A DNA stretch of 64,000 bases from an uncultured Bacteroidales bacterium. GTDB lineage: Bacteria > Bacteroidota > Bacteroidia > Bacteroidales > Paludibacteraceae. This document shows, piece by piece, positions 44,309 to 62,635 of this stretch. The stretch covers positions 81,289-145,288 of the forward strand of contig CAMIZG010000001.1 of the NCBI GenBank assembly GCA_946403215.1, read 5' to 3'. Below the pieces are notes generated by a model that was not told the DNA's origin, searched no databases, and saw nothing but the letters and a program-made list of their open reading frames with translations. Position 1 is the first letter of the stretch. Each line of letters begins with the position of its first letter. Position numbers and translations under genes: made by a program.

Positions 44309-45421
44309 ATGAACATCCGCGTCGGCATACTAACTGCACCGCACATCCGTTGCGAGAAGCACCCGAAAGGAGTGCTGCTACGCGATGTGCGTATAGGCAT
44401 AGGTTTCCATTGGGACCGTACCGAAGACCAACTCTTCGAAGGCACTATGGAGATCCGTGACAACGCCGATGGCACGCAGACCGCCATCAACACCCTTGAC
44501 GTAGAGGACTACCTGACATCCGTCATCACCTCGGAGATGTCCGCAACCTCCTCACTCGAACTACTGAAGGCACACGCCGTCATATCGCGCTCTTGGGTAC
44601 TACGCCCAATACTGGGGCGTCAGAATGTACCAGCCACGCATGGCTGGTCGGTAACCCCCAACCGCCGCATCGTATGGTACGAGCGCGATGCACACACGGG
44701 CTTTGATGTCTGTGCCGATGATCACTGCCAGCGTTACGAAGGAATAACCCGCCGCGATGCTAACCCCGAAGCCGCCAAACGGGTACGCGAGGCCGTGGAG
44801 GCAACACGAGGAGTCGTGCTCGTTGATCCTACGGCCCACAACGCCATCTGCGACACACGCTTCTACAAGTGCTGCGGCGGACGGACGGAGCTGTTCGAGA
44901 ACGCCTGGGCACCGCACCACTACAGGTATCTGGAGAGCGTGGAGTGCCCGTACTGCAAGACAAAAGATGTGCGCGTGCTCAGTCAGGTGCTTAACAACTA
45001 CGACTTTGAGACGCAGGACTTCTACCGCTGGACGGTCCGCTATACGGCAGCTGAATTATCAGACATCATTCGCGAGCGATCAGGCATTGACTTCGGACAG
45101 ATACAACTACTCACCCCCATCAAACGCGGACCGAGCGGACGAATATACGAACTGGAGATCGTTGGCGCGAAGCATCGGATGATCATTGGCAAAGAGCTGG
45201 AGATTCGCAAATGGCTCAGTCGCACCTGCCTGTATAGCTCGGCATTCGAGGTGGAGAGAGAAGGTACGAATTGGGTGTTGATGGGCAAGGGCTGGGGACA
45301 CGGAGTAGGTCTCTGCCAGATAGGAGCAGCCGTCATGGCGGATAAGGGTTACACCTACGAACAGATACTCGCCCATTACTACCCGGGCGCACAACTTAAG
45401 CAAATAATTGTTAGTCGTTAG
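44309..45421 (+). CDS. SpoIID/LytB domain protein
   Basis: VEDYLTSVITSEMSATSSLELLKAHAVISRSWVL...RFYKCCGGRTE...GKGWGHGVGLCQIGAAVMADKGYTYEQILAHYYPGAQL. Confidence 0.9.
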   Translation: MNIRVGILTAPHIRCEKHPKGVLLRDVRIGIGFHWDRTEDQLFEGTMEIRDNADGTQTAINTLDVEDYLTSVITSEMSATSSLELLKAHAVISRSWVLRPILGRQNVPATHGWSVTPNRRIVWYERDAHTGFDVCADDHCQRYEGITRRDANPEAAKRVREAVEATRGVVLVDPTAHNAICDTRFYKCCGGRTELFENAWAPHHYRYLESVECPYCKTKDVRVLSQVLNNYDFETQDFYRWTVRYTAAELSDIIRERSGIDFGQIQLLTPIKRGPSGRIYELEIVGAKHRMIIGKELEIRKWLSRTCLYSSAFEVEREGTNWVLMGKGWGHGVGLCQIGAAVMADKGYTYEQILAHYYPGAQLKQIIVSR

Positions 45422-45469: not shown

Positions 45470-47134
45470 ATGAAACATTATCTACACATTACGCTTCTTG
45501 CTGCCGCTTGTCTGTTCTTCGCTGGACAGAGTAGGGCGGACGCACCGGCAAATGTTCGGGAAGAATTGCGCATGGACAAACCGTTCGTCACCGACCAGCA
45601 GACCCAGCACGAGACACTGCCGCTGGTAGCCGCGTCAACGGACAGCTTGGTGCGCGTTACGACGAAGTACATCCACACCTACATCGACACCATCCGGGTT
45701 GTCCGCTATAGTGAGGATAGTATCCCCCGTACGGATACCGTCATCACCTATGCTGACTCCACCGACCGCCGTGGACATTACATCCAAGCGTACCTCGGTG
45801 GCGGTTATGGATCGATAGGATTCAAACTTAACCAGGATTACGGCGGCAAGGTCACCGGTTTCTTCAGTGGACGTGCGCAACTCCAATATGCGTACTTCTT
45901 CCACCAGCACTGGGGCGTAGGGGCCGGCTTGTGGTTCGAGAACCTCTCATCCACCGCCTCGCTGGCCAACGGCAAGGAGTACACCGACTTCTTCTACGGG
46001 GATCGTATTGATACCGATGGCGAACCCCACTACAACCACACCGCACGTATCTATGCCTGGAAGGAACGCGCCACCCTGTATAATCTTGCAATCCCTGTAT
46101 CCCTACAAACGCAGTGGTGGAAAGAGGATGGCGAAGTAGGCATCTTCGGCGCACTGGGTGTTGCTCCGGCGTTTGCTATTGCGCAGAACTACCGCCTGGT
46201 GGAAGGTGATGTGGAGCACTACGGCGAGTACCCGAACTGGGGTCTGAAACTCGACGGGATGGCTGATCATGAGTACGCCCGTAACACCGACGATCCCTCA
46301 CTCTACACCGGCAAACCGACCGCCAAGGGTAAGATGAATGTCAAAATGATGGCTACCGTCTTTGCTGACCTGGGAGTGTTGATCAACCTGAACCGCCAGT
46401 TGGATATGATGGTTGGTCTCTATGGGCACTTCACACCTAACAATGTGGTGACAGAAACAATCACTTCGAAGTACTTGCCTGAAGGTGCCGATGAATCTGC
46501 AGCTCCGTTCGGTTGGGCTGATGGTCAGCGCGTAGGCCCTGAAACGTTCATGGATGAGTACAAAGGGCTGTACGCCACCAACCTGCGTGTGGGCAAGACC
46601 TACCCATGGGCTGTCGGCGTCAAGGTAGGTATTCACTGGCATCACATCGCCAAACCCAAATCGCACACCGAGCAGAACTTCGACTACTTTTTCCGCCCTG
46701 ATACAACGATCCGTACCGTTGAGCGCGTAGAAACAGAACTCGTGGAGCGCATCGATACATTTAAGCGTGCACCCCAAATGGAGATCAAGCTCATCCAGAA
46801 GAAGGTGGACAAACTCAACAAGATCTACTTTGCTTTCGATAGTTACACCTTGAACAGCAAATCCAAGAAGTACCTGCGTGATATCTACGCCATCCTCAAG
46901 GAGGTGCCCAACCATATTATCATCGGTGGTCACGCTTCCGAGGAAGGTCAGGTGGAGTACAACGAACGACTCGCGCTCAACCGCGCACAGGCAGTTAAGA
47001 ACTACCTCGTACAACTCGGCATCCCCGAGCCGCAACTCGAGGTCAAGAACTACGGCGCACGTGTACACAACGAGGAACGTGTGGATAACAACATATCCCT
47101 CGACCGCCGCGTCGAAATCGTCATAATGGAATAA
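45470..47134 (+). CDS. OmpA family outer-membrane protein (copy 1)
   Basis: Signal peptide; beta-barrel-like N-terminus; KIYFAFDSYTLNSKSKKYLRDIYAILKEVPNHIIIGGHASEEGQVEYNERLALNRAQAVKNYLVQLGI. Confidence 0.9.
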   Translation: MKHYLHITLLAAACLFFAGQSRADAPANVREELRMDKPFVTDQQTQHETLPLVAASTDSLVRVTTKYIHTYIDTIRVVRYSEDSIPRTDTVITYADSTDRRGHYIQAYLGGGYGSIGFKLNQDYGGKVTGFFSGRAQLQYAYFFHQHWGVGAGLWFENLSSTASLANGKEYTDFFYGDRIDTDGEPHYNHTARIYAWKERATLYNLAIPVSLQTQWWKEDGEVGIFGALGVAPAFAIAQNYRLVEGDVEHYGEYPNWGLKLDGMADHEYARNTDDPSLYTGKPTAKGKMNVKMMATVFADLGVLINLNRQLDMMVGLYGHFTPNNVVTETITSKYLPEGADESAAPFGWADGQRVGPETFMDEYKGLYATNLRVGKTYPWAVGVKVGIHWHHIAKPKSHTEQNFDYFFRPDTTIRTVERVETELVERIDTFKRAPQMEIKLIQKKVDKLNKIYFAFDSYTLNSKSKKYLRDIYAILKEVPNHIIIGGHASEEGQVEYNERLALNRAQAVKNYLVQLGIPEPQLEVKNYGARVHNEERVDNNISLDRRVEIVIME

Positions 47135-47149
47135 CCTCAATAGCACAAT

Positions 47150-47187
47150 CTAACGATTTAACAGTTTAACAATTTAACGGTTTAACA
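47150..47187. repeat. Quasi-decameric intergenic repeat
   Basis: taacgatttaacagtttaacaatttaacggtttaac. Confidence 0.75.
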
Positions 47188-47201
47188 AAAAATCAGAGAT
47201 T

Positions 47202-50021
47202 ATGAAAACACGTAATATATATATCAGTTTGTTGCTTGCAGCCGTTTGCGCTGCGCCGATGTTCGCCCGCCAGTTCGAGCAAGGCGAGAAGATTTATGTG
47301 AATGCCGACCAGAGTTGGAACGGTGGTGGTGGCAATTTCGATTGGTCGAAAGATAATGCCAAATTATTTTTGTATATCATTAAGAACGGAGGTGATGAAT
47401 GGGTGACGCTTAGCAAAGAGAGCGGTAGTATTTATGTAGGCGAAATGCCAGAAGGTGATTACCATACTTGTGTTGTTGTGCGCAAGAGCAGCAGCGGAAC
47501 GCCCGATAACTGGAATAACATATGGAATCAGACATGCGACCGCCAATTGGTAGATAACCCGGACATCAATTGTATCAAAGTGATCAATCTTAAGGATGGT
47601 GTTGGCGCTTGCGAAGGAGATAATTTTTGGGCTACTTACGCACCAGCTGTCAGCAAAATAAAGGCTTTTGCTGATGCTGAAAAAGAAGAAGAGATACATA
47701 TCTGCTCGAGTGCTTTAGGTGGACCATTCTCACTCCGGCCGAAACTGAAGGAGGATAAGTCTGACTATATGTATGATCTGGTTTCGTGTCACGGATGGTA
47801 TGTATCAACCGATAAGAATACATGGACATCTCTTGATGGGAATGCTGGTGTTATGCGTGATGGGGAAGGAGAAAAAGATTTCCTCAATTATAATCTGCCT
47901 GTATCTATTCCGGCGACCGGCATCTATTTTTATCTTCATACAGCCAAGAAAGCTGGTCGCCGATTAATCAAGGTAAAAGCCGATGCTTCCGATTGTGCCT
48001 ACGACTGTACTATCACTTCCTTTGAGGTGGCTTGCTCCGCTGTCAATGCCAACGATACAACGTTCACGCTGGACGGTATGGTGGCATTTGGGGAGCCTAA
48101 CGGAGACCTGATGATAACATGCGGCAACAAGTCCGTAACCATCAAGGCTGCAGAAGCCAAGAGTCCGCAAATCTTCTCCATCAGCGGAATACGTGCGGCA
48201 ATCGATAACAATACGCCAACCAAAGCAGTGGCTCAATTCAAAGGCAATACCGGTTGCAAGGCGGAGAAATCGTTTGCCGTACCCAATGCAGTGGAAGGAA
48301 TAAAGACCCACCGAATTAATGTGCTTGTGGGAGAAACCAAATCCCTCAAACCCCAAGATGCAGACTACAGTTATAACCATGAGTGGTATGCCAATGGGCA
48401 AAAGCAAACCACGCAATACGACCTTACTACTACACCACGTTACGAGACGCATGTTGACACGTACATGTATCAGGAGTTCAACAACCCGCTGGGACCGATG
48501 GATGACATGATGACCAATGGAGGTTACGAGTCAACCAAAGTGGCCGATTACGGTACGGAAGGAGGCAAGTCAACTATAAGTGATTATGACTTCTGGGGCA
48601 TAAAGGCCAATGCTTCTACGCCGACTAATTATTATGATTCCCATCCGGGGGCAAACAATGGTTTTGCCGTTGTTCAAAGTGCGAATAAATTTGCCAAAAC
48701 GTTCGCAAAATTAGTAACACCTGCAGGGAATAAAGAAGCACATGAAGGTAATTACTTTGCTTTGTTTGACGCCAAGTCCGGTGTTGATGGGGGCAACAAG
48801 AAGGCTTGGTATGCAAACACCCAGATGAACACCAAACTGAAACTCAAGAAGGGCACCACCTATATGTTCTCTTTTTGGGCAGCTAACATCAACAACTACG
48901 GCGAGATGGACAATGCCGCCAAACTACAATTTCAGATTAATGGTAAGAATATTGACGGCTTGTTACTCGACCTGAGCAAAACTGAGTTCCGCAACAACCG
49001 TTGGCATCAATGCTCGTCCGTATATTATGCTGATACCGATGTTGAAAATGTTACCATCTCAGTGGTCAACCTCAATACAAACGCCTTGCATATTGGTAAT
49101 GATTTTGCTCTCGATGACATTCAGTTCCGTCCTATCAGCAACAACGCTAAGGTTATGCGCCAGCTGCAGTACTTCACTGTATATACCCATGAACCCCACG
49201 TCCATGCGCTCAAGGCTGATGTACAGCCCATGGCTTGCGACAAGGAAGAGTATGATGTGATCCTCGAAGTACAATACGACAACCCCATGGGTAAACTCAT
49301 CATCCGCGACAAGACGGCCGGTAAGGTGGTGTTCAACGACAAGGTGCCTACTGAAGGTGCCGATTGGGATACGAAGAAATCCAAATTCGTGACGATCCAT
49401 ATTGACGCGCTCGAACCCGCTGAGCATGAATACGAAGCATACTTTGAACAGTGGACTAAATCCAAGGCGACAGCCAAGTCGCAAGCTCCCCAATTCACCA
49501 CTTGTTGCAACCCCACGATCATGTACACCAAGTGGGAGAACGTTATTTTCATCGCTAATGCCGATGGTGAGTTCGTGGCCTTCCAGTGGCACAAGAACGG
49601 CCAGAAAATGAACGGCGAAACGCAGCAGCGTTACTATGCTGGTGCCGGCAAATCGCTCAAAGGCTCAACCGATACCTACTTCTGCGAGGTCACCCACAAA
49701 GATGGTTCAACTGAGAAGAGCTGCGAATATACTTTCGACCAGTGCCCGCGCTCGGCGGAGCACACCGCTATCGAGGATATTATGCTTGACGGCGTAGCAG
49801 TCTATCCCACCCAGCTGGCTGCCGGAGAGGTGGTGACCGTCTGCAAGAACTTCGCGGGTACGCTCCAGGCCAATTTGCTCACCCTCACCGGACAAACAGT
49901 TTCCACCACCGAACTGCGTGGTGACCAAACCACTATAAAGATGCCGGGCATAGCAGGCATGTATCTGCTGCAACTGCACGGCGCTACTTCACAACGAACA
50001 GTCAAGATCAATGTGTACTAA
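47202..50021 (+). CDS. Large secreted protein with T9SS C-terminal sorting domain (paralog of the 51998 giant)
   Basis: Signal peptide; KKGTTYMFSFWAANINNYGEMDNAAKLQFQI...IGNDFALDDIQFRPIS; C-term VAVYPTQLAAGEVVTVCKNFAGTLQANLLTLTGQTVSTTELRGDQTTIKMPGIAGMYLLQLHGATSQRTVKINVY. Confidence 0.85.
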   Translation: MKTRNIYISLLLAAVCAAPMFARQFEQGEKIYVNADQSWNGGGGNFDWSKDNAKLFLYIIKNGGDEWVTLSKESGSIYVGEMPEGDYHTCVVVRKSSSGTPDNWNNIWNQTCDRQLVDNPDINCIKVINLKDGVGACEGDNFWATYAPAVSKIKAFADAEKEEEIHICSSALGGPFSLRPKLKEDKSDYMYDLVSCHGWYVSTDKNTWTSLDGNAGVMRDGEGEKDFLNYNLPVSIPATGIYFYLHTAKKAGRRLIKVKADASDCAYDCTITSFEVACSAVNANDTTFTLDGMVAFGEPNGDLMITCGNKSVTIKAAEAKSPQIFSISGIRAAIDNNTPTKAVAQFKGNTGCKAEKSFAVPNAVEGIKTHRINVLVGETKSLKPQDADYSYNHEWYANGQKQTTQYDLTTTPRYETHVDTYMYQEFNNPLGPMDDMMTNGGYESTKVADYGTEGGKSTISDYDFWGIKANASTPTNYYDSHPGANNGFAVVQSANKFAKTFAKLVTPAGNKEAHEGNYFALFDAKSGVDGGNKKAWYANTQMNTKLKLKKGTTYMFSFWAANINNYGEMDNAAKLQFQINGKNIDGLLLDLSKTEFRNNRWHQCSSVYYADTDVENVTISVVNLNTNALHIGNDFALDDIQFRPISNNAKVMRQLQYFTVYTHEPHVHALKADVQPMACDKEEYDVILEVQYDNPMGKLIIRDKTAGKVVFNDKVPTEGADWDTKKSKFVTIHIDALEPAEHEYEAYFEQWTKSKATAKSQAPQFTTCCNPTIMYTKWENVIFIANADGEFVAFQWHKNGQKMNGETQQRYYAGAGKSLKGSTDTYFCEVTHKDGSTEKSCEYTFDQCPRSAEHTAIEDIMLDGVAVYPTQLAAGEVVTVCKNFAGTLQANLLTLTGQTVSTTELRGDQTTIKMPGIAGMYLLQLHGATSQRTVKINVY

Positions 50022-51612
50022 TCGAATCATAACAGCTCTTGCCGCTCTCGGCGTGGCACTTGGCGTACATGCGCAAGAGGTTGCTTCCGAGCGTTTCCCG
50101 GGACATCAAGTCACCGAAACGCAACATTCCGAGCAACGGATAACGTTGCCTGTTGACCCGCAGGCACCCGATACGCTCATCGAGGTCTGGATGCTTGATA
50201 TCAATACCTATGTCGATACGCTCCGCACCGTCAGTACCAATGAGACCACCGTCACCCAGCCTGGTGACTCCACACGACGTGGCCATTACGTCGAGATACA
50301 TGCAGGCGCAGGTATAGGTAATGTCGGCTACGGCTGGCTCCGCCGCGATCTGCAGCACCCGACAGCCAAAGGTTATGAGCAGTTTGGCATCTCTGGTGTG
50401 GCCCAACTGCAGTACGCCTACTTCTTCCACCCCAGCGTTGGTATAGGCATCGGCGCATGGCTGGCTAACTATACTTCGCATGGCTACCTTAGCGGCGATG
50501 TGATCTATCGTGGACTAAAGCAGGAGAATGGCAAGTACGTCCCGGATTTCAGCAGCACCGTTCGTGACAATGATGGCAAGGGCGAGTTCTACAACCATCA
50601 CGTCTCTATCCACTCCTGGCACGAGCGTCAGACCATCCACACCGCCGGTGTGCCTGTCTCCCTGCAGTTCCAGGCCTGGGGCAAGAAGGATAAAGCAGGC
50701 TTCTTCGCATCTCTAGGCGTCGCGCCTACTTTTACCGTCAAGACTGACTATCGTATCATCGATGGCAACATTGAGCACTGGGGTGAATATGCGCACCGCG
50801 GCGGGGCTGAACTGCATGACCTCCATGACTTCAGCCATGTTAACTACTCCGGCCGCGTGGGCAAGCAGACCATGAAACTCTTCACGGCTACTGCCTTCCT
50901 CGATCTTGGACTGTTGATCAAGATGAGCCGTCACACCGACTTCCTGATAGGCGTCTACGGCCACTATGATTTCCTCGACATCCAAGCCGCCCAACGCACC
51001 GACCTCGGCTGGCCGGACGAGCGCTTCCCCTACCTCAATGCACCCGAGTACAAGGGCATCCTTGCTACCAACTGTCTTGCTGACGAAGGAGTGCTCCGCC
51101 CTTGGCAGGCGGGTGTGAAGATAGGTGTGCATTGGCACAGCGTCAAACCCGATCGCACATCTACCACCATCTACTCCGACACCACCATCCAACTCTATGC
51201 TCGCGAGGATAGTGTATGGACTTCGCGTGTGGACACCCTCAAGTACCAAAAGCCTACGATTGAGCAGATCCAGCGTGAGATCGACAAACTCAACCGCATC
51301 TATTTCGCCTTTGATAGCTACGAACTTAATGAGGAGTCGATGGCTTTACTCCGGCAGATAGCCGAGCAGCTGAAAACGATCCCCAACAAGGTGCTCATCG
51401 GTGGACACGCATCTAAAGAAGGATTGCGCGCGCATAACGCGCGTCTCGCGCGATACCGTGCACTCGTAGTGACGTATTTCCTCGTGGATTGCGGTATACC
51501 CAATACCCGCCTCATCCAGAAGGACTATGGTTCAAGTGTCGAGAATGCAATTAATATCCACCACGACCTCTCACTCGACCGCCGCGTGGAGATCATCGTT
51601 CAGGAGGAATAA
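50011..51612 (+). CDS. OmpA family outer-membrane protein (copy 2)
   Basis: RIYFAFDSYELNEESMALLRQIAEQLKTIPNKVLIGGHASKEGLRAHNARLARYRALVVTYFLVDCGIPN; overlaps the upstream stop by 11 nt. Confidence 0.9.
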   Translation: MCTNRIITALAALGVALGVHAQEVASERFPGHQVTETQHSEQRITLPVDPQAPDTLIEVWMLDINTYVDTLRTVSTNETTVTQPGDSTRRGHYVEIHAGAGIGNVGYGWLRRDLQHPTAKGYEQFGISGVAQLQYAYFFHPSVGIGIGAWLANYTSHGYLSGDVIYRGLKQENGKYVPDFSSTVRDNDGKGEFYNHHVSIHSWHERQTIHTAGVPVSLQFQAWGKKDKAGFFASLGVAPTFTVKTDYRIIDGNIEHWGEYAHRGGAELHDLHDFSHVNYSGRVGKQTMKLFTATAFLDLGLLIKMSRHTDFLIGVYGHYDFLDIQAAQRTDLGWPDERFPYLNAPEYKGILATNCLADEGVLRPWQAGVKIGVHWHSVKPDRTSTTIYSDTTIQLYAREDSVWTSRVDTLKYQKPTIEQIQREIDKLNRIYFAFDSYELNEESMALLRQIAEQLKTIPNKVLIGGHASKEGLRAHNARLARYRALVVTYFLVDCGIPNTRLIQKDYGSSVENAINIHHDLSLDRRVEIIVQEE

Positions 51613-51710
51613 CCCGCGCGCAAAAGAACCACTCGGTATCCCGATATAACGGGAAAAAAATAACACCGCAAAAAATGATACAACACACTCAATATGGAAA
51701 TGTAAATTTT

Positions 51711-51780
51711 TGCACTGGCAAAAATGGCAGAAATGGCAAAACTTTTGCCACTTTTGCCACTTCTGCCAGTGCATTTTTTT
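51711..51780. terminator. Long imperfect hairpin (about 31-bp stem) with 3' T-tract, built of TGGCA/TGCCA repeats
   Basis: tgcactggcaaaaatggcagaaatggcaaaa-c-ttttgccacttttgccacttctgccagtgca-ttttttt. Confidence 0.75.
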
Positions 51781-51997
51781 CTATTCTGGATCAGCGCAGC
51801 GGTCTGGTTTGTCCGGACTATCCGGTTTCCTTTCCCTCGCTCCCAACAATTTTTTCGAACGTTATGTTCGAAAACTGAACGTTAGTCGTTCTTAGTTGTT
51901 TTTAGTGATCCTTAGTCATTGTCAGGGGCAACACCACCCCCGAAGCAACTCGACTCACAATCAACCATAGCCAAAATATAGTAAACATAACACCATC

Positions 51998-54900
51998 ATG
52001 AAACATATCTTCACCATGAATCAACGAAATATAGTTACCAGCATATTACTGCTGTTATTGGGCTTTGTAGTAGTCTTACCCTCGTATGCTGGAGATTACG
52101 AGCGTAATTTTGATGGCACTGAGGTGCTTTATATTAAGACGGCCCCTGCTAATTGGTACTGGTACGGTAATGATATGGATAAGGGGAAATTTGCATATTT
52201 CTTTAATAGTAATACTGGTGCAAATGCGTGGACTACCGAGGCTGTGGGCAGTCCATTGTATGATGCCCTACAGATTGTTGTGCCTGCAGGTAATTGGACA
52301 CATGTTATCCTTACCCGTCACGATGTAAAGAGCAATCCTTCTTGGGACAATATAATATGGTCGGAGGATGCACAGCAAAAGTCGGGTGATATACCAATAA
52401 ATTCAACGCATAACTATCTCCAGAATTTTGCGAGGGGAACAGCAGATCATCATTATTGGGCACAATATATTTTCGGACCTTCGGCCACTAATCCGGCTGC
52501 AGGTAAGGTGGATGGAATAGAAGAAGAGTTGATTGAGTTTTGTCCGGAATCTTCTGGAGATCCCTTTTCTTTAACGCCTATTTTTGATGAGGGAGGAAAA
52601 GACTATAATTATAATAGTAGCGGTAGTCATGCTTGGTACAAGTGGAATGGAAGTTCTTGGGAACTTGTGAGCGACCAATATGCCGGATATAAGACTGACG
52701 GCGAAAACGAATGGTTTTGCAATGAAAAATTATCATCTGCCGCAGATACATATTACTTCCTTTGGACGAACGCTCCATCACGCCGCAGGCTGTTGCACCT
52801 GAAGAAGAAGGCTTCCTGTCCGGAGGTGTGTGAAATAACTTCCTTCCGATATGTTACAACGCCTGTGAATGTCAACGATAGTACGTTCGCCTTTGAGGGT
52901 AGCGTGGCTTTTACCAAGAAGGCGGGTGATCTGATTATACAATATAGAGACTCCATACTTACGATTGAGGATCCCGTTAGCCCTCAAGTCTTTAGCTTGC
53001 AAGGGTTGAAGGCGGATGGTGCGGAAGGACATCATTTGACAGCGAGATTTTCCGAGGATGGCTCATGTGAGGCAGATAGTGTAATAAAGAAGGCACCTTC
53101 TCCGGAATCCGGTGTTACGATTTACCTTTCTAATATTGATTATTCTCCGAAACATCCCTATAGTCCTAAAGCAGAAACTTATAGTCATAATACTTCTGTA
53201 CTTCTCACTCCGAGCGTTCAAGTTACCGACAGCTTTGTTTGGACAGACATAAAGGGCAATAAATTAAAGAGCAATAGGGATTTAGCACCGAATAATACCT
53301 ATACGATATCCGGCTATAATCAGGATACCACCATCTTGCTCTATTATACAGAATTCAATACGCCGCCGGTAGTAGGTGGTAATATGATGAGTAACGGCAG
53401 TTACGAGGATCTCGCCGCCAACATGGATGGAATGAGCGACTATGATTATACTAAACGTTATGAAAATAAAACGAATATAATTTGGGATGGATTAAAGGAT
53501 GATGAAAATGGCGGTATAATTGATGATGTGAGAAAGAATGTATATTGGTTCAAGACTGGATACGACGCAGTAAAAGATACCAGTTACTATAATGCCAAAA
53601 GTGGTATTTGGGGAATAACGACTGATGCGAATATCTTTTGGGAAAGAATGGCTAAAATATCGCCAAAGGATGCAAATTATATGGCGGTGTTTGATGGCGA
53701 CGCAGGTGAGAAAGAAGCATGGAAAGCTGTTGGAAATCCCAGCCTTTCCCCCAACCCTAATCCCAATTTGTTATTGCAGAAAGGAACAACATATATGTTC
53801 TCTTTCTGGGTGGCTAATGTCAACAATTTCGGCGAAATGATTAATTTTAAGCCGGATGGAAGTAGCATGACAAATAATGCCATCTTGCAATTCAAGATTA
53901 AATACAAAGATAAGGCAACAGGAACAGAATATGAGGAATTCCTCGGGGAGCCTACAAATTTGAACGATAGCAAGTATTTGAATAACTTCTGGCATCAGAA
54001 TTCAGCCACTTTTACTAGTCCTGTGGATGCAGATGAAGTAACCGTTTCGGTGGTGGATAAGAATACCAGCGGAATGCGTATCGGAAATGACTTCGCGTTG
54101 GATGATATCCAGTTCCGCCCTGTTTCAATTAAGTTGGCTACAGTCCGCGCCCGCGAGCGCTTTGAAGTTAAGTTCGTTGAGCCGGGAACCAATCCGGTTA
54201 ACCTGCAAGTAGAGTGGGTTACTAGGCCCGCCTGCGGTCAGGACACTTGTACTATGCGCGTATCGTTCCGCTATCCGAATATCACGACGCATGATATCAA
54301 GCTGACGCTGAAAGACCTGAATACAAGCAACAGTTACGGCACACTGCTTGAAAATGTGACGCTTGCCAAAACTCCTATCCCCGGAAATGCCGACTCAACG
54401 GATTATGTCGGATACTTTACCAGTGGCAGTTATGGTGGTGCAACATATAAGGATAAAGTGAAAGCCGACGCTGCTACGCATAACATCAGGGCAAAACTTA
54501 CTGTGCTGGATGCTAATGATGTAGATCATGGTGGGCAAACGAATGAGTCTGGTCTGCAAGCCCCGGGGATTCCTGCTCTTGCGATTACTGATGTTACCAT
54601 GAATAAACCGGATTGCAGTGGTTTGAAGTACACTTTGGATATAGATCTGAATTATACTGCATTGAGTGGTACGACATTAACATATTACGTGGATAATGTT
54701 AGCAAAGCTACACGTACTATAGATTATGAAGTTACTGCGCGTACAAAAAATGATGTGCCGACTGCTGCATTGGATGCTGATGGCAAAGAACACACATTGA
54801 AAGTTTCAACAGGTCATGCACTTGATTGTATTGATACCTATACTTATACTGCACCTAAAGCCAACATTGTCAGCGACCTGTCTGTCGCACCTATCCAACC

Positions 54901-57900
54901 GGATTGCGATGAGGAGAAGTATAGGTTGATCGTGTCATGGGAGGTTACTAAACCAGCTGTGACAGGTAGTTTGTTTGATACGCTGATGATTAAGGTGGGT
55001 GACGCATCGCCTTATGAAATCCTTATAAAGGCCGGTGAGCCGAATATGACGATTTCCGGTAACGTAGCTACTGGTACATTCGAAATACCGATTGACTATG
55101 CAATAGGTGCTTCTCATCCGACTATCAAGGCGTACATGAAGGAGCGTGGTGCATCCTGTTATTTTACTCCACTTCCAACATATGCAGATCCCACCGTTCC
55201 GCGAATGACAATCGGCACGCCTACCTTCGAAGACATTGCATGCAACGTGCCCACATTTACGCTCGTTGTGCCTGATACGTTCATCTACCAGCGTGGTGAT
55301 ATGCGCATGTGGCTGGATTCCGCTACGTATGACAAAGCCAAATCAGGTCAGAAGATTACTATCACAGATGGCAACCGTTGCGCCGGCGTTACAACCGGTG
55401 ACAAGTACACCGTGAACAGCACGGATAAACTGGTGACACTCTTCAAGTTCACCGGCTTGTCACTTACCGGAACGCACAAGATCTTTGCTGAGTGTACGGG
55501 TGAACATTCATGTCACCGCGTTCCCGAAGACTACGCGGGCAAAGAGTTCGTTGCTCCTACATTGCCCACGGCAGCAGTCAAAGAAGGCTCAATCGAATAT
55601 ACCTCACCTGTATGTGATGTTGAGACGGTTACGTTGAAGTTTACTATCAACTATGTTAACCAGAGCGGTACGCTAAAGGTATGGGTGACTGATTTGGGAG
55701 AAGAAACGTATAGTTATGCCGGTACTACAGGTTCGGTGAATATCGAATATCCGAACGTGCCTGCCGACGGCTGGGCGACTCGCAAACTGAACTTTGAGTT
55801 CGAGGGTTCATGCTCCGTAACAAACATTGCCTTACCGGCACCGCCACGTTGGCCGGTAGTGAAGGGCGTGACAGTAACTACGCCGGCGAATGTGGCATGC
55901 TCTGAGGATGACTATACCGCAAGTATCAAGGTGGATTACGTAAACATTGCGTCTGCCGATAAGCTTGTTGTTCAATACACGAATGCGGCAGGAGAGACCA
56001 AGACGAAAAAGATGGATGAAGTGTCGCTAACCGGTACAAGCAAGACCTTTGATTTCACGCTTGATGATATCGACAAAGGCAGCAAAGAGTTGTATGTCTA
56101 CCTGGATGGCGCTGCTGCTGATTGCAAAACCACTCTTCAGCACAAAGGCACATACACCGCGCCGTATCGTCCCGAACTCATAATCAACAGTGTGGATACC
56201 CTGCATGACGCATGTTCGGCAAGCACCTATGCTATTGCCATCGACTGGAAGTACAGAGCATTCAAAGCGGGGACGATGAAGTTCTATGTTGACGAAACGG
56301 AAAAAGGTACTCCGCGTGCTGTCACCTATAACGCGACTACCTTCACTCTATGTAAGGATACTATCAAAGGCCTGACGGCTGACGGAGGATTGCACACGCT
56401 GAAACTGTTAACGAATGTGGCGGACAACTGTACGGAATCGCGGTCAAACATCCGCGCACCGAAGGGCAATACAATCACATCCTTCCGTGTGGATACCACC
56501 GTCCTCAAGTGTGATGAGACTAAGTACAAGCTCATCGCTTCATGGGAAGTTTCTGCTCCGGCCGGCACGTACGATACACTTATAATAGTCAACGCGGCTA
56601 ACGAGGTGCTGTGGAAAGATTCGCTGACAAGTGCCACACGTAGCAATATAGTAACACTTGCTAAGGAATACACCGTAGGTGATGTGACCACCCCTACGCC
56701 CATCTACGCATATCTCAAGGAGCGCGGACGCTCGGCATGCGACAAGAGCGATACATACGTCAGTCCTGTAACGCCGAAATTGAACGCGTTAAGTACGCGC
56801 ATCATAACTGACTCGGCCGATTGCGATGAGAGCACTTATTCGCTTATCGTTCCCATCACCTACACCAACCAGCATGGGCGGATGTACGTTTGGCTCGATG
56901 CCGCATCGTATGCAGTTGCTACCGATAAGGTGGAGGTTACAAGTTCGACAGGCTTTGTTACCGGTGGCGCTTATGCTGATGGAGTAGGTTATACCGAAGG
57001 GGCTGCCGTAAGCAAAAAGACTTACGCCAAGATTACCGGTATCCAAGGCAATGGCGCTGAGCGAAAAGTCAGCGTAGCGTTCGATGATCCGCGAGGCTGC
57101 AAGATCCTGGACGGTCTGACATATACCGAACCCTTCCGTCCGGTGATAACCGGTGTAACTGCAACACCCACTACACCTGATGCCGGTGTGCTCACGTACG
57201 ATGTTGAGGTAACGGTTAGCACTACTAACGGTCACGGCAGACAGGTGACAATCACATCCGGTGACTTAGGTTTGCCTGACTTCACAGGCAATGTGGATGG
57301 CATAACAGGTAAACTCACCCATACGTTCGAAGGCATTGTTACCGATCATGGCAAGACGCATAAGTTCTACGCATACTTTACCGACCGCAAGAACTGTGTC
57401 AAGGAGGGCTCGTTTACCTCACCTGATCAGCGGAAGTTCCATACCTTCAATGTGGTGGATACCTTACTTCCGCTGTGCGACAACACGTCGTATGTCGTAT
57501 TTGAAGTAACATCCACCGCCATGGGAGGCGAGTTGGTTATCAAGGACAAAGATACAGATGTCGAGCTCTACCGTCACGCCACACCGATTACCAACCCCTT
57601 CCGCGACACAATCAAACATTTATCGCGTCAGGCGGATGGCAGCGTGCATACATTGGTAGCATCTTTCACTGCCCCGACACCTGTTCAGAGCAAGGAAGAC
57701 TCCTACACGGCACGTCCCGAGCCGACAATCAGCATGAGCGGCGGTGCCGTAACCGGCCCGGATTGCAAAGGCACGGTTCATCTGCCATTGACCGTATCAT
57801 TCGTCAACCAGACGTCGGATCTGTATATAGTGAATAACAAGGGCGAAGAGATTGATCATGTACTTGCCGCAGAGTTGATAGGCAAATCAACCTTCTCCGC

Positions 57901-60900
57901 GGGAGAGTATCACTACACCAAAGATTGGACTTATGAGGCCAACGACGAAAGTGCTACACTGAGGGCGTATGCCTACTTTGCTGATCGTCCGGATTGTACA
58001 CGTCCTGAAGTGTCAGCAGTTGAAAAACACGCACAGACGTGGGGCTACACCTATCACCACTCGGCTATAGCATGTGACGGCTCTTACACCAGTACGCTGC
58101 ACTTCACATGGAGTAACGGCGCAAGTGCCTTCCATATTGACAGTGTGGATGCAACATCCCATGTTGTACAGGCATCGCTGGTCAACGACTCACATACCGC
58201 CGGATCCGTTACACGGATTATTAAAGGAAATGTGGTAACGGATACGCCAAAAGATATTTATCGCGTATATTGGGATGCAAACAATACCGATGAGTGCGAT
58301 AGCATTATCACAACCATTGTGCCGGATGCCTCTGTATGGACATTGGCACCCTTCAACGTTACCAAAAACGAAGTAAGCTGTGGTGCAACAAAGTACACCT
58401 TCCACCCTACATGGACCTATCTCAAAGCGGCAAGTGATTTGATTATTGCTGAAGTCGGAGTAGATGAACCTGTCTGGAAAGGTGCGGCCAATACCGATCC
58501 GTCAACCGTAGTCATCACCGGTGATCTCGACCTTGCCAACCCAGGCAAGCCGCACAAGTTCTACGCGTACTTTGAGGATCGCGGTGCCGGAGTATGTAAC
58601 AGTAATATCGTATCCGTCAACGAGCCGCTTGTTCCGTATGTAAAGGTTACACGCTCGGAATACACGCAACCGGCATGCGATGTAGCAAAAGATACACTGC
58701 TGGTTGATCTCGAGTTTGTCCGCCAAGGCGGCACTGCCGAAGTATGGGTTGACGGAGGTGCAAAGACCTCGTCTACAACAAGTTTCCCCGTACAAGACGC
58801 GCCTCAAACATGGAAGAACATCCGCATTGAGGATGTGCCGGCTGACGGACAAAAACACACCTTGCATGTTAAGTTCTCGTCAGGTTGTGCAACGCAGGAC
58901 ATCGATATCCCTGTTAATGCTCCCGCCACACCTACAATGGTGATAGGCGCACCCACAACGTCTTCGGATGCAGATTGCCAGGATAGTACATATACTCTTG
59001 TAGTGCCCGTTACTTATGCTTATCAACTCGGCAAGATGTATGCGTGGATTGATACGGATACCAAGCGTCATCAAGTGTCTGTCAACGAGCAGGAGGATGG
59101 TGCAGCTGTCGATTACGCTGCAGGCCAGAGTTCACGTACTACGAACATCAAGTTTACCGGTTTGACAGGCGACGGCAACAGCCACACGATACATGTGGCA
59201 TGCGATGGGGAAGGTGCCTGCGATAAGTCGAAGCCATTTGACGCCCCGTTCCGACCGGTGATTGACAGTGTTGTTGTTCGGTGCAGTCAGCCGGCATTCG
59301 GCGAAGTGTATTACAACGACACCGTCAAGGTATATTACAAGAACGCTACCAAGTCCGGCGGTGCTGATCTTACTATTCAAAGCACAACACCTCTCGGCGA
59401 TGAAGTATCAGTGCGTAAAAAGACTACTGCCGTTTCCGGCAATGGAGTGCTCGTACACACCTTCACCGGCATACGTGCTACGGATGGCGCGTCGTACCGC
59501 ATTGAGGCGTTCTTTGATGATCGCAATACATGCAAACCCTATGCAGACTTTGTAACGCCCGATACGCGCCATATAGAGTTCACGGTAAAGCCTTCTATTG
59601 TTGATTGCAACGGCAATGATACTATTATCTTCACCGTCAATGCTGCCGACCTGAGCGGCAATCTTGTCATCACGGATGGCACGAACGAGTTGTACAACAA
59701 GCCTGCTCCTGCCTCGTACCCGTTCACCGGCAAGATTGACGATGCTCTGCAGGCAGCGGGCACGAACCTCAACCTGCAGGCTTACTTTACCAGTGATCTT
59801 ACATTCCTGAGCGGAGCGCAACACTATATTGCGCCGGATGCACCAACACTTAGCTTGGGCAGGAAGCCCGGTCATGTTGTGAGCTGTGACGGTAACGTGA
59901 CGATGCAATTGGTAGTTGAGTATGCTCACCAAACCGGTTCGCTGGAGGTGCGTGACAACAGCAATGCACTTATCGCCGAGATCGCGAATAGTGCTCTTCC
60001 GGCATCGCCGTTCACCATCGATTGGACGTACGCCGCCGATGGCGAGGCGCGAACAGCAACGGCATTCTTTAGCAATCGTCCGACTTGTGTTGACACCGAG
60101 GATGCAGATGCTCTGTCGGTACCGTATCGGACATTTACGCACCATTTGTCCACGCCTGACTGCGACGGCTACTACTATGATACGATACGTTTCGCATGGA
60201 AAGACGCAGCCGGAGAGTTTGTAGTGGACTCCGCAGGTACGAATCTATGCCCGAGCACTGCCGCCAACGGTACGTTCGACAGGGTACTTCGCGGACATGT
60301 GACCGATGCGGAGAGAGACCTCTATGCGATGTCTTTCAGTGGCCAATTAGGTTGCGAACCTACAATCGTACGCAGCAGCGTGCCGGCATCATCCGTGCTC
60401 ACCGGCTTCAAGTACGACACTGCATATGCCGAAGGCTGCGATGCAACCACTTATACCCTGAAGGTTAGTTGGGACTATGCTTTGGCAGAGGATGATTTAA
60501 TCATCGAGGATGCTGCCTCAGGCATTATCTGGCAGGATGCTGCTACCGACAAATCTGCAACGATAAAAGATTTGCCGTTAGACCTCACAAGTCTAGGTAA
60601 GAGCCACACATTGTATGCTTATTTCCGTGATAGAGCCGCAGATTGCAAGCATGAAGTATCTATTTCGTACAACGAACCCGACAGACCTGCTGTAAACATT
60701 GAGAATGAGATATCATTCAGCGGACAGAGCTGTAAGGGCGAAACAGTTGAGCTTACTTTCAAGCTCACCTATACGCAGCAGAACGGCACGGTGGAGGCAT
60801 GGATTGACGGAATGGAGCCGGTTACCGTCGGCTCAGCACAAAATGAGACCTGGACACCTGCCACTGAGCAGTTCAAACTAGCGGACGTTCCTGCTGACGG

Positions 60901-62635
60901 CAGAACAACCGACCTGCATGTGCGCATCAACGGTGCTTCGGGCTGCACGGCGGACAAGAGTGACATCGTAATCCCACAGCAGCCGATCATCCGAACCATC
61001 ACAACTGACCAGCCGAAAGCATTTGTCAGCTGCGGTGAAGCGTATGACGTGACCGTCAGTGTGACCTTCGAGCACGGCAACGGCAAGTATATCTGCGTCA
61101 AGTACACCGATGATGGCAAGGACGACAATGTTGCACAAACCACAGAGGCGGTTACTGACGGCACAACGGCTGTTATCACTCTTACTGGACTCAAAGACGT
61201 AGGTACGGATAGTAGGAATATATCCGTTTATTTCAAGGACTATGAGAGTTGCGCTGACGCTTCTGCGACATACAATCTGCCTGCATTGAACAGCATAACG
61301 GCGTTGACGGCTGTCCCAAGTGCATCCACTTGTGGTACGCTTAATTACTCCGTAAGCGGTAGTGTGACATTCAACAATGCTGATGGCGACCTCATCGTGA
61401 AGTATGGCGACAAAGTTGCTACTATCACCAATCAGACAGCAACTTCAGCTGACTACATCATCAATGATATGACAGCCGAAGGAACAGGCTTGCAACTAAC
61501 GGCGTATTTCTTCAACGCTCCAGGATGCTCCCTGTCCAAGCAGTTTGACGCACCCGTGGTGCCGACGCTCTCTGCTGACATCAGTAGTGTAAATGAAGAG
61601 TTCATCTGTGGCGACAAGTATTACGATGTCACCCTTAGCATCTCGGCCGAGAATCAGAGTGGTGACTATGTTGTAATTGACCGTGTAGCGGGAGGTTCTG
61701 AATGGCAGTACACCAACCAAACGAAGTTTACTATCAACCGCCCTGCTAATGCTGAGACGCACACAATCATTGTACGCTATCCGGATACTAAGTGTGAATA
61801 CGTTATCCCGACACCTGTTGAGGTCACTCCGGATATCAAGCCTTTGCCAATCATCAGTCTTATGCCTATAGAACGACGCGTATGCAATAGCGAGCGGGAG
61901 CTTGCGTTGCCGTTTAGAATCGATGCCGGTGATATAGAGGAGGCGACACTCACGCTATCGGGTGCTACAGCCGTTGACAATGCCGAACTGACTATCAACG
62001 CAAGCAAGGATACATTGACATACATCCTGCCCGACGGATTCAAGCTCAATGCAGGCAAGCATAGTGCTATAGTTGAGGCTGTGGATGCAATGGGGTGCTC
62101 GACAAAAGCCGAGTTGTCGCTTGTGGAGGTGGCGCTGGATGGCATCATCTACTCCAAGTGGAACGACGTGCTGCTTGTGGATAACTCCGCCGGCCTGTAT
62201 AGCGGCTATCAGTGGTACGAGAACGACAAACCGGTAGGCGACAATTCGCAAGTGCTCTACCGAACGGATGGAATGACGAACAATTCGTACTACTGCCTGC
62301 TGACGCTCCAAGATGGCGGACAGATCTACACGTGCGAATATGTCTTCCAGCACATAACACCATCGGTTGAAGAGCAGCAGCCCGGCAACAGTACCACCGC
62401 CAACCGGATCCTCGTTCGGCCTAACCGTGTCGTACAGGGTGGGGCTGTTACCGTTCAGCAGTCCGAGCCAGAGACCTTGCATCTGGTGCTCATGAGTTCT
62501 ACCGGTCAGCGCATAGCCGAATATACGCAGACGGATAGCTCTAAACCGGTCAATATGCCTACCGTACAAGGTGTATATCTGTTGCGTATCACTTCCGATA
62601 GTGGTCTGCAAACAGAAAAGATTGTGGTATATTAA
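51998..62635 (+). CDS. Giant (3545 aa) T9SS-exported modular surface protein, probable adhesin
   Basis: Uninterrupted 10.6-kb ORF; signal peptide SILLLLLGFVVVLPSYAG; roughly 25 Cys-paired ~95-120 aa modules; Ig-like YQWYENDKPVGDN...YYCLLTLQDGG; CTD ILVRPNRVVQGGAVTVQQSEPETLHLVLMSSTGQRIAEYTQTDSSKPVNMPTVQGVYLLRITSDSGLQTEKIVVY. Confidence 0.88.
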   Translation: MKHIFTMNQRNIVTSILLLLLGFVVVLPSYAGDYERNFDGTEVLYIKTAPANWYWYGNDMDKGKFAYFFNSNTGANAWTTEAVGSPLYDALQIVVPAGNWTHVILTRHDVKSNPSWDNIIWSEDAQQKSGDIPINSTHNYLQNFARGTADHHYWAQYIFGPSATNPAAGKVDGIEEELIEFCPESSGDPFSLTPIFDEGGKDYNYNSSGSHAWYKWNGSSWELVSDQYAGYKTDGENEWFCNEKLSSAADTYYFLWTNAPSRRRLLHLKKKASCPEVCEITSFRYVTTPVNVNDSTFAFEGSVAFTKKAGDLIIQYRDSILTIEDPVSPQVFSLQGLKADGAEGHHLTARFSEDGSCEADSVIKKAPSPESGVTIYLSNIDYSPKHPYSPKAETYSHNTSVLLTPSVQVTDSFVWTDIKGNKLKSNRDLAPNNTYTISGYNQDTTILLYYTEFNTPPVVGGNMMSNGSYEDLAANMDGMSDYDYTKRYENKTNIIWDGLKDDENGGIIDDVRKNVYWFKTGYDAVKDTSYYNAKSGIWGITTDANIFWERMAKISPKDANYMAVFDGDAGEKEAWKAVGNPSLSPNPNPNLLLQKGTTYMFSFWVANVNNFGEMINFKPDGSSMTNNAILQFKIKYKDKATGTEYEEFLGEPTNLNDSKYLNNFWHQNSATFTSPVDADEVTVSVVDKNTSGMRIGNDFALDDIQFRPVSIKLATVRARERFEVKFVEPGTNPVNLQVEWVTRPACGQDTCTMRVSFRYPNITTHDIKLTLKDLNTSNSYGTLLENVTLAKTPIPGNADSTDYVGYFTSGSYGGATYKDKVKADAATHNIRAKLTVLDANDVDHGGQTNESGLQAPGIPALAITDVTMNKPDCSGLKYTLDIDLNYTALSGTTLTYYVDNVSKATRTIDYEVTARTKNDVPTAALDADGKEHTLKVSTGHALDCIDTYTYTAPKANIVSDLSVAPIQPDCDEEKYRLIVSWEVTKPAVTGSLFDTLMIKVGDASPYEILIKAGEPNMTISGNVATGTFEIPIDYAIGASHPTIKAYMKERGASCYFTPLPTYADPTVPRMTIGTPTFEDIACNVPTFTLVVPDTFIYQRGDMRMWLDSATYDKAKSGQKITITDGNRCAGVTTGDKYTVNSTDKLVTLFKFTGLSLTGTHKIFAECTGEHSCHRVPEDYAGKEFVAPTLPTAAVKEGSIEYTSPVCDVETVTLKFTINYVNQSGTLKVWVTDLGEETYSYAGTTGSVNIEYPNVPADGWATRKLNFEFEGSCSVTNIALPAPPRWPVVKGVTVTTPANVACSEDDYTASIKVDYVNIASADKLVVQYTNAAGETKTKKMDEVSLTGTSKTFDFTLDDIDKGSKELYVYLDGAAADCKTTLQHKGTYTAPYRPELIINSVDTLHDACSASTYAIAIDWKYRAFKAGTMKFYVDETEKGTPRAVTYNATTFTLCKDTIKGLTADGGLHTLKLLTNVADNCTESRSNIRAPKGNTITSFRVDTTVLKCDETKYKLIASWEVSAPAGTYDTLIIVNAANEVLWKDSLTSATRSNIVTLAKEYTVGDVTTPTPIYAYLKERGRSACDKSDTYVSPVTPKLNALSTRIITDSADCDESTYSLIVPITYTNQHGRMYVWLDAASYAVATDKVEVTSSTGFVTGGAYADGVGYTEGAAVSKKTYAKITGIQGNGAERKVSVAFDDPRGCKILDGLTYTEPFRPVITGVTATPTTPDAGVLTYDVEVTVSTTNGHGRQVTITSGDLGLPDFTGNVDGITGKLTHTFEGIVTDHGKTHKFYAYFTDRKNCVKEGSFTSPDQRKFHTFNVVDTLLPLCDNTSYVVFEVTSTAMGGELVIKDKDTDVELYRHATPITNPFRDTIKHLSRQADGSVHTLVASFTAPTPVQSKEDSYTARPEPTISMSGGAVTGPDCKGTVHLPLTVSFVNQTSDLYIVNNKGEEIDHVLAAELIGKSTFSAGEYHYTKDWTYEANDESATLRAYAYFADRPDCTRPEVSAVEKHAQTWGYTYHHSAIACDGSYTSTLHFTWSNGASAFHIDSVDATSHVVQASLVNDSHTAGSVTRIIKGNVVTDTPKDIYRVYWDANNTDECDSIITTIVPDASVWTLAPFNVTKNEVSCGATKYTFHPTWTYLKAASDLIIAEVGVDEPVWKGAANTDPSTVVITGDLDLANPGKPHKFYAYFEDRGAGVCNSNIVSVNEPLVPYVKVTRSEYTQPACDVAKDTLLVDLEFVRQGGTAEVWVDGGAKTSSTTSFPVQDAPQTWKNIRIEDVPADGQKHTLHVKFSSGCATQDIDIPVNAPATPTMVIGAPTTSSDADCQDSTYTLVVPVTYAYQLGKMYAWIDTDTKRHQVSVNEQEDGAAVDYAAGQSSRTTNIKFTGLTGDGNSHTIHVACDGEGACDKSKPFDAPFRPVIDSVVVRCSQPAFGEVYYNDTVKVYYKNATKSGGADLTIQSTTPLGDEVSVRKKTTAVSGNGVLVHTFTGIRATDGASYRIEAFFDDRNTCKPYADFVTPDTRHIEFTVKPSIVDCNGNDTIIFTVNAADLSGNLVITDGTNELYNKPAPASYPFTGKIDDALQAAGTNLNLQAYFTSDLTFLSGAQHYIAPDAPTLSLGRKPGHVVSCDGNVTMQLVVEYAHQTGSLEVRDNSNALIAEIANSALPASPFTIDWTYAADGEARTATAFFSNRPTCVDTEDADALSVPYRTFTHHLSTPDCDGYYYDTIRFAWKDAAGEFVVDSAGTNLCPSTAANGTFDRVLRGHVTDAERDLYAMSFSGQLGCEPTIVRSSVPASSVLTGFKYDTAYAEGCDATTYTLKVSWDYALAEDDLIIEDAASGIIWQDAATDKSATIKDLPLDLTSLGKSHTLYAYFRDRAADCKHEVSISYNEPDRPAVNIENEISFSGQSCKGETVELTFKLTYTQQNGTVEAWIDGMEPVTVGSAQNETWTPATEQFKLADVPADGRTTDLHVRINGASGCTADKSDIVIPQQPIIRTITTDQPKAFVSCGEAYDVTVSVTFEHGNGKYICVKYTDDGKDDNVAQTTEAVTDGTTAVITLTGLKDVGTDSRNISVYFKDYESCADASATYNLPALNSITALTAVPSASTCGTLNYSVSGSVTFNNADGDLIVKYGDKVATITNQTATSADYIINDMTAEGTGLQLTAYFFNAPGCSLSKQFDAPVVPTLSADISSVNEEFICGDKYYDVTLSISAENQSGDYVVIDRVAGGSEWQYTNQTKFTINRPANAETHTIIVRYPDTKCEYVIPTPVEVTPDIKPLPIISLMPIERRVCNSERELALPFRIDAGDIEEATLTLSGATAVDNAELTINASKDTLTYILPDGFKLNAGKHSAIVEAVDAMGCSTKAELSLVEVALDGIIYSKWNDVLLVDNSAGLYSGYQWYENDKPVGDNSQVLYRTDGMTNNSYYCLLTLQDGGQIYTCEYVFQHITPSVEEQQPGNSTTANRILVRPNRVVQGGAVTVQQSEPETLHLVLMSSTGQRIAEYTQTDSSKPVNMPTVQGVYLLRITSDSGLQTEKIVVY

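Follow-up and report, generated by a model that had tools for sequence, protein, structure and literature searches.

Known cases in which a T9SS surface protein is matched to an outer-membrane barrel involve PorP and SprF. Type B cargos are served by cognate SprF-like shuttles (PMC12618676), Porphyromonas gingivalis has a PorE–PorP–PG1035 complex, and porP-like genes adjoin porE-like genes in F. johnsoniae (PMC9143113). The F. johnsoniae SprF and OmpA proteins are described as a 14-strand and an 8-strand barrel, respectively (PMC12611786), and the peptidoglycan contacts of PorE are made by the side chains of Asp576, Asn584 and Arg591 (PMC7192894). In Myxococcus, TraA and TraB are encoded in an overlapping operon and both proteins are needed (PMC3325183). 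For large T9SS proteins without type B signals, retention is understood mainly through the sortase and A-LPS in Porphyromonas.

The window, that is, the whole 64,000-nucleotide stretch of DNA analyzed here, is the terminal part of a 145-kb contig in a 2.2-Mb draft genome, the nearest named relatives of which are rumen or ruminant-gut Paludibacteraceae/Bacteroidales MAGs. It contains two OmpA-type proteins and two T9SS proteins, encoded by four intact open reading frames (ORFs) whose order, positions and sizes agree with those given in the first-pass annotation. The features are as follows.

45470–47134, + strand: OmpA1, ORF of 554 aa (PF00691 64.9 bits; AF2 mean pLDDT 82.8)
45773–46642, + strand: predicted OmpA1 barrel, OMP_b-brl_2-like, residues 102–391 (secondary structure of the AF2 model)
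46778–47128, + strand: OmpA-like domain of OmpA1, residues 437–553 (motif GHAS.EG...N..L...RA)
47202–50021, + strand: T9SS protein 1 (T1), ORF of 939 aa, predicted exported multi-domain beta-sandwich protein (AF2 pLDDT 88.5)
47262–48461, + strand: T1 N-domain, residues ~21–420, common to the giant and exchangeable
48462–49181, + strand: T1 jelly-roll region, residues ~421–660, exchangeable jointly with the N-domain
49503–49787, + strand: T1 Ig-like module, residues ~768–862, constant element of barrel-linked cargos (PDB profile match)
49794–50015, + strand: T1 type A-like CTD with seven predicted strands, residues 865–938 (TIGR04183 24.3 bits)
50011–50021, + strand: 11-nt overlap of T1 and OmpA2 (ORF coordinates)
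50011–51612, + strand: OmpA2, paralogue of OmpA1 with 38% identity, 533 aa (PF00691 51.2 bits)
51712–51772, + strand: long hairpin and T run in the OmpA2–giant interval (folding z −6.1)
51998–62635, + strand: giant T9SS protein, ORF of 3545 aa (TIGR04183 30.0 bits)
54152–61735, + strand: 25 diverged repeats of the giant, ~75–100 aa each, residues 719–3246 (iterative HMM)
62132–62377, + strand: Ig-like module of the giant, residues ~3379–3460
62420–62629, + strand: type A-like CTD of the giant, residues 3475–3544 (TIGR04183)

OmpA1 and OmpA2 align over 537 columns, which confirms their paralogy, and T1 and the giant share 30% identity over their N-terminal ~700 aa and 29% over the last ~168 aa. 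The common N-domain, jelly roll, Ig module and CTD recognized previously are thus real, and the extra length of the giant relative to T1 is made up by its 25 repeats. Judged from their identities of about 30–38%, both kinds of protein are ancient paralogues, so that the proposed tandem duplication stands as a duplication and not as a recent one. The T1–OmpA2 overlap is kept in seven of eight further orthologous loci, and the gap between OmpA2 and the giant ranges from −1 to about 2000 nt among orthologous loci. At our locus, this interval folds far better than shuffles; its hairpin, of nearly 30 base pairs with a T run after it and a left arm that occurs once in the window, looks terminator-like, attenuator-like or like a mobile-element remnant. 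A SpoIID-like protein (370 aa, assigned by eye; 44309–45421, + strand) precedes OmpA1, a similar-sized gene is found at this position in most orthologous loci, and an FtsY-like gene lies downstream of the giant.

The AF2 model of OmpA1, computed from 72 homologues (pTM 0.54), comprises a signal peptide, a long strand (residues 58–93), the barrel, a second long strand (residues 397–432) and the OmpA domain, and our reading of its strand list places eight membrane strands in the barrel. In this model, OmpA1 has the architecture that characterizes the OmpA family, an eight-stranded barrel followed by a PF00691 domain. Foldseek matched E. coli OmpA to the barrel as well as to the whole protein, and Capnocytophaga OmpA, Pal and PorE to the C-terminal domain. 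As OMP_b-brl_2 (PF13568) is matched in 40 of 59 barrel family members, the barrel belongs, on profile evidence, to this superfamily. A sequence search for PDB relatives of the barrel found none that was convincing, and the best matches in a plasmid search with OmpA1 were generic OmpA domains.

Other barrel classes were considered and set aside. Neither OmpA1, OmpA2 nor any of the 59 relatives matched TIGR03519 or PorP_SprF, the PorV models gave no match to the barrel, and the eight membrane strands of the OmpA1 model differ from the 14 of a FadL-like barrel. The genome encodes SprA (2665 bits) and the PorU sortase (1063 bits), and its only TIGR03519 protein, the canonical PorP, is found at C1:36463. 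Since this PorP and one type B substrate (TIGR04131, on C6) are encoded elsewhere in the genome, the OmpA-barrel system stands beside the PorP route. These observations bear out the earlier view that the partner protein differs from the PorP/SprF type.

The OmpA domains of OmpA1 and OmpA2 score far above the PF00691 cut-off. Asn498 and Arg505 (OmpA1 numbering) are invariant in the OmpA1-family domains (72/72), and the position of the peptidoglycan-contacting Asp is occupied by Ser in 65 and by Cys in seven of the 72. OmpA1 residues 487–505 (46928–46984) accordingly carry GHAS.EG where peptidoglycan-binding OmpA domains have GHTD; HTD is kept in seven of the eight other OmpA-domain proteins of the same genome. 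One of the three peptidoglycan-contact residues has thus been lost, which we count against binding of the cell wall by the OmpA1-family domain; such binding is plausible.

Of 178 genomes in the genus, 126 contain relatives of the OmpA1 barrel part; at E ≤ 1e-30, the barrel is present in 18 of the 33 genera sampled from the family and in 21 of the 206 from the order. We mapped the neighborhoods of 60 loci chosen by barrel similarity alone and of 72 further named loci. In the genus and order samples, which were selected by barrel similarity only, an Ig-module cargo lies at most 900 nt from the barrel on the same strand in 116 of 123 cases (upstream of the barrel in 62, downstream in 47 and on both sides in seven), and in other genera and families a large Ig-module protein lies directly beside the barrel in 39 of the 40 fetched loci. 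Of the seven unpaired barrels, two have a cargo gene that runs off the contig and two are affected by split reading frames; the others are a second barrel, an OmpA1 that has been relocated (L072; its T1–OmpA2–giant partners lie in L073) and one case in which the cargo is really lacking (L283).

In a set of 31 good genomes, an Ig-module cargo accompanies 61 of 64 strong barrels and is absent from all nine barrels of the neighboring subfamily (97–134 bits). In the reverse direction, a barrel adjoins 57 of the 64 Ig modules that score strongly (≥ 74 bits) in these genomes; as barrel-linked modules were used to construct the Ig model, part of its score gap to unlinked modules is built in. Of the seven Ig modules without an adjacent barrel, five lie in genes truncated by a contig end. 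The other two, in homologous giants (G104:C13 and C5 of our genome), seem to be real exceptions to the pairing, the latter copy being also 5'-cut. None of the other eight OmpA-domain genes of the genome is near an Ig-module gene, and with 4–9 such genes among roughly 2000 we estimate that adjacency by chance would amount to about 1% or less. The homologues thus do not usually lack an adjacent OmpA-type barrel gene, the outcome that the first-pass annotation had named as speaking against its proposal. The barrel–cargo pairing is real, widespread and apparently undescribed: we found no earlier account of OmpA-barrel/T9SS-cargo pairing in the open-access papers searched, which does not prove novelty.

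Several loci carry one of the two components. Giants of >4800 and 5269 aa with an Ig module and a CTD are encoded at L060:3–14438 (contig 5 of our genome, 5'-cut) and L305:3788–19597, and no partner barrel was seen beside either. On contig 10, a 360-aa barrel of the neighboring subfamily (L012:1339–2421) stands alone between DsbD-like and glucose-6-phosphate-isomerase-like genes, and its relatives are likewise without Ig cargo. Contig 32 (L061:1–3519) has tandem Ig-module proteins of ~1000–1100 aa without a strong barrel; such tandems recur in the genus (for example G102:C28:55297 and 58607), and in five genomes a weak barrel relative (53–64 bits) is found ~5.1 kb upstream.

The paired genes occur in at least three arrangements: a barrel-OmpA gene followed by the cargo gene, as at our locus; a cargo gene followed by a barrel-OmpA gene, the two touching or overlapping; and a barrel-OmpA gene accompanied by one Ig cargo or two and by a short barrel that has no OmpA domain. 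Several partner barrels are devoid of the OmpA domain, including that of one pair on contig 21 of the same genome. The constant element is therefore the barrel with its Ig cargo, to which the putative wall-binding domain is a frequent addition, and tethering to peptidoglycan is not general. On contig 21 (L059:1119–4855), the barrel overlaps the end of a 932-aa Ig-module protein by 4 nt, and the tail of this protein is a very short RKMLQDGQLLIIVDGKSYNMFGQQ-type sequence.

Single-unit genomes have the barrel and then the cargo; OmpA1–T1 occurs alone in G008 and G154 (L065 and L067) and a separate OmpA2–giant-like unit in G128 (L074). This order and the dissociation of the units indicate that they are most simply OmpA1–T1 and OmpA2–giant, so that the 11-nt overlap ties two units together and does not mark partners. 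Translational coupling, as previously suggested from the overlap, would consequently link OmpA2 to T1 and not to its likely partner. Co-variation in the nine four-gene loci does not indicate which Ig module belongs to which barrel, and the terminator-like hairpin separates OmpA2 from the giant, its presumed partner, which we count against the explanation favored below.

We compared distances across 58 barrel-then-cargo pairs. Barrel distances correlate with those of the Ig module (r 0.78) and of the tail (0.43), and far less with those of the N-domain (0.17) and jelly roll (0.09). Partialling out the OmpA domain of the same protein leaves 0.64 for the Ig module, 0.34 for the tail, −0.06 for the N-domain and −0.09 for the jelly roll, and the OmpA domain itself correlates with the Ig module at 0.00 once the barrel is given. 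When two neighbor-gene species markers are added (n = 35), the barrel–Ig partial correlation is 0.49–0.50 (Mantel p 0.0005, the smallest value obtainable with 2000 permutations), that of the tail is 0.26–0.28, and those of the N-domain and jelly roll are near 0. Because the N-domain and jelly roll lie between the barrel and the Ig module on the DNA, linkage predicts the opposite order. The barrels therefore diverge in a pair-specific manner, and, of the parts of the cargo for which co-evolution with the barrel had been envisaged earlier (CTD and N-domain), the tail co-varies with it, as does the Ig module, and the N-domain does not. Docking through the N-domain or jelly roll was rejected for this want of co-variation, and docking in extracellular loops is not supported either: the barrel–Ig signal sits in the strand part of the barrel (surface loops given strands, 0.05), and hence locates no interface.

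Natural swaps follow the same division of the cargo. In L143 and L146, the DNA that flanks an exchanged cargo segment is ~95% identical on either side, and within the segment (codons ~6 to ~957) almost no DNA similarity is left; the distances between the two loci are 0.01 for the barrel, 0.01 for the Ig module, 0.03 for the tail and 1.80 for the N-domain. The L135/L137 pair shows the same pattern. Such swaps replace the exposed portion of the cargo but leave the barrel, the Ig module and the tail untouched. In L143 (11328–14182, compared with L146), nearly all of the exposed portion has been replaced by cassette exchange. Between L143 and L144, the flanks are 76% identical and the barrel–cargo unit 94%, which argues that the pair moved as one; the complete unit (L143:9625–16638) seems, from this comparison, to have passed between different species.

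An explanation of the co-variation that involves no functional match is that the barrel and Ig module co-vary through vertical descent alone, with the part between them recombining. The N-domain and jelly roll clearly recombine (and vary together, r 0.93), the co-variation is not concentrated in loops and, as the species markers are just two neighbor genes, shared descent might still contribute. We nevertheless consider this explanation unlikely, since, with the barrel given, no co-variation with the Ig module is left for the OmpA domain on the same chain, the correlation holds up, and reaches its maximum, among the genome pairs with the closest markers (r 0.76 in the closest quarter), and adjacency itself is kept across the order.

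The cargos contain predicted strings of modules. The AF2 model of T1 is a string of beta-sandwich domains with a seven-stranded CTD at its end, in agreement with type A CTDs (PMC12618676). Foldseek returned multi-Ig/FnIII and MAM-Ig proteins for T1, with a low whole-chain TM-score for each; its jelly roll gave MAM/CBM-like matches and a weak CBM_4_9 match, and profile comparison with the PDB identifies the module that precedes the CTD as a true Ig-like domain. The giant exceeds the TIGR04183 cut-off of 23 bits, and T1 falls just below it as a whole protein (21.6) and just above it when its last 110 aa are used. A type B CTD (TIGR04131) on the cargos was rejected, as the tails match TIGR04183 and the only TIGR04131 protein of the genome is the one on C6. 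The tail after the Ig module measures 71–93 aa, a full CTD, in the order-wide loci, and 32–86 aa, mostly <65, in the genus of our genome.

Such tails bear on the idea that the barrel is chiefly a cargo-specific carrier that replaces PorV or SprF at the translocon and is required for export, anchoring being secondary. In the genus, tails are often shortened to 32–56 aa and just 28 of 53 cargo tails match TIGR04183, so that some cargos do not have a complete type A signal; carriers of the SprF type are likewise cognate neighbors (PMC12618676). However, the type A-like CTD is of full length in T1 and the giant, which could use PorV, and known carriers are 14-stranded FadL-like barrels (PMC9143113, PMC12611786), whereas OmpA1 is modeled with eight strands. 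A role chiefly in carriage is thus, in our judgment, improbable. Even less credible is that T1 and the giant are ordinary type A cargos, cut by PorU and attached to LPS beside merely co-expressed OmpA envelope proteins, as this reading, while compatible with the type A CTDs and PorU sortase, predicts neither the 116/123 pairing, nor the barrel–Ig co-variation after controls, nor swaps that spare barrel and Ig module, nor half-length CTDs.

We favor instead, as the probable explanation, that each barrel is the dedicated surface anchor, and possibly also the carrier, of its neighbor, which would dock through its C-terminal Ig module. OmpA1–T1 and OmpA2–giant would both represent a widespread module of two genes for surface display. 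Export of the cargo by the T9SS would rely on a signal peptide and a type A-like CTD, after which the Ig-like module and remaining CTD of the cargo would dock on the cognate, predicted eight-stranded OmpA-type barrel, which would hold it at the outer membrane. In OmpA1 and OmpA2, the barrel would continue through a long periplasmic beta stretch into the OmpA domain, likely tying the complex to the cell wall, so that one polypeptide would do the job of PorP and PorE. What the cargo exposes to the outside (N-domain, jelly roll and repeats) would be an exchangeable cassette, perhaps with an adhesin role. Against this explanation, the presence of PorU makes a covalent attachment of type A cargo to LPS possible. 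The first-pass annotation had proposed a dedicated partner that is tethered to peptidoglycan; pairing and co-variation support the dedicated partner, and the barrels without an OmpA domain limit the tethering. More tentatively, and with somewhat less than even confidence, we suggest a Bacteroidales-wide class of T9SS cargo partners, in which an OmpA-type eight-stranded barrel, often fused to a wall domain, serves as dedicated carrier and anchor of a cargo that has an Ig-like module and a full or shortened CTD and an exposed part diversified by cassette exchange. The barrel–cargo family would offer a second, non-covalent and gene-encoded route of retention in a large bacterial group; gene order gives each giant protein a candidate partner, and the natural domain swaps make the putative docking element (Ig module and tail) directly testable.

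The proposed module resembles SprB–SprF and PG1035–PorP with PorE in that a T9SS surface protein, often an adhesin-like giant, is encoded beside a cognate outer-membrane barrel and an OmpA domain reaches the cell wall (PMC9143113, PMC12618676). In sprB–sprF, the gene for the barrel comes immediately after that for the cargo, an order matched by other arrangements found here, whereas at our locus the barrel precedes the cargo. The barrel is of the OmpA type with eight modeled strands and not a 14-stranded PorP/SprF barrel (TIGR03519), barrel and OmpA domain form one protein instead of the separate PorP and PorE, and the cargo signal is type A-like or shortened in place of the type B signal TIGR04131.

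Canonical OmpA proteins (E. coli OmpA, Fjoh_0697) have an eight-stranded barrel and an OmpA domain, as predicted for OmpA1, and the invariant Asn and Arg of the peptidoglycan site are common to the OmpA1 family, canonical OmpA and the C-terminal domain of PorE (6top). The OmpA1 family differs from the latter two in its long periplasmic beta stretch and in GHAS.EG instead of GHTD, and from canonical OmpA in its near-obligatory cargo neighbor. Our data suggest that a barrel type commonly regarded as a general wall anchor has been recruited for specific surface proteins.

Beyond the T9SS, two systems are functional parallels. TraA–TraB of Myxococcus likewise combines a repeat-rich surface protein, a C-terminal sorting tag and an OmpA-domain neighbor (PMC3325183), but it involves no T9SS, the tag is MYXO-CTERM, unlike that of T1 and the giant, and the TraB model is matched by the OmpA domain only (29.8 and 40.5 bits, cut-off 700). 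In AtaA–TpgA of Acinetobacter (PMC13082670), a giant adhesin is likewise reinforced by a dedicated auxiliary protein; AtaA is a trimeric autotransporter, and TpgA, which belongs to the peptidoglycan-associated OmpA-domain family of NCBIfam, is periplasmic and, unlike OmpA1 and OmpA2, has no barrel.
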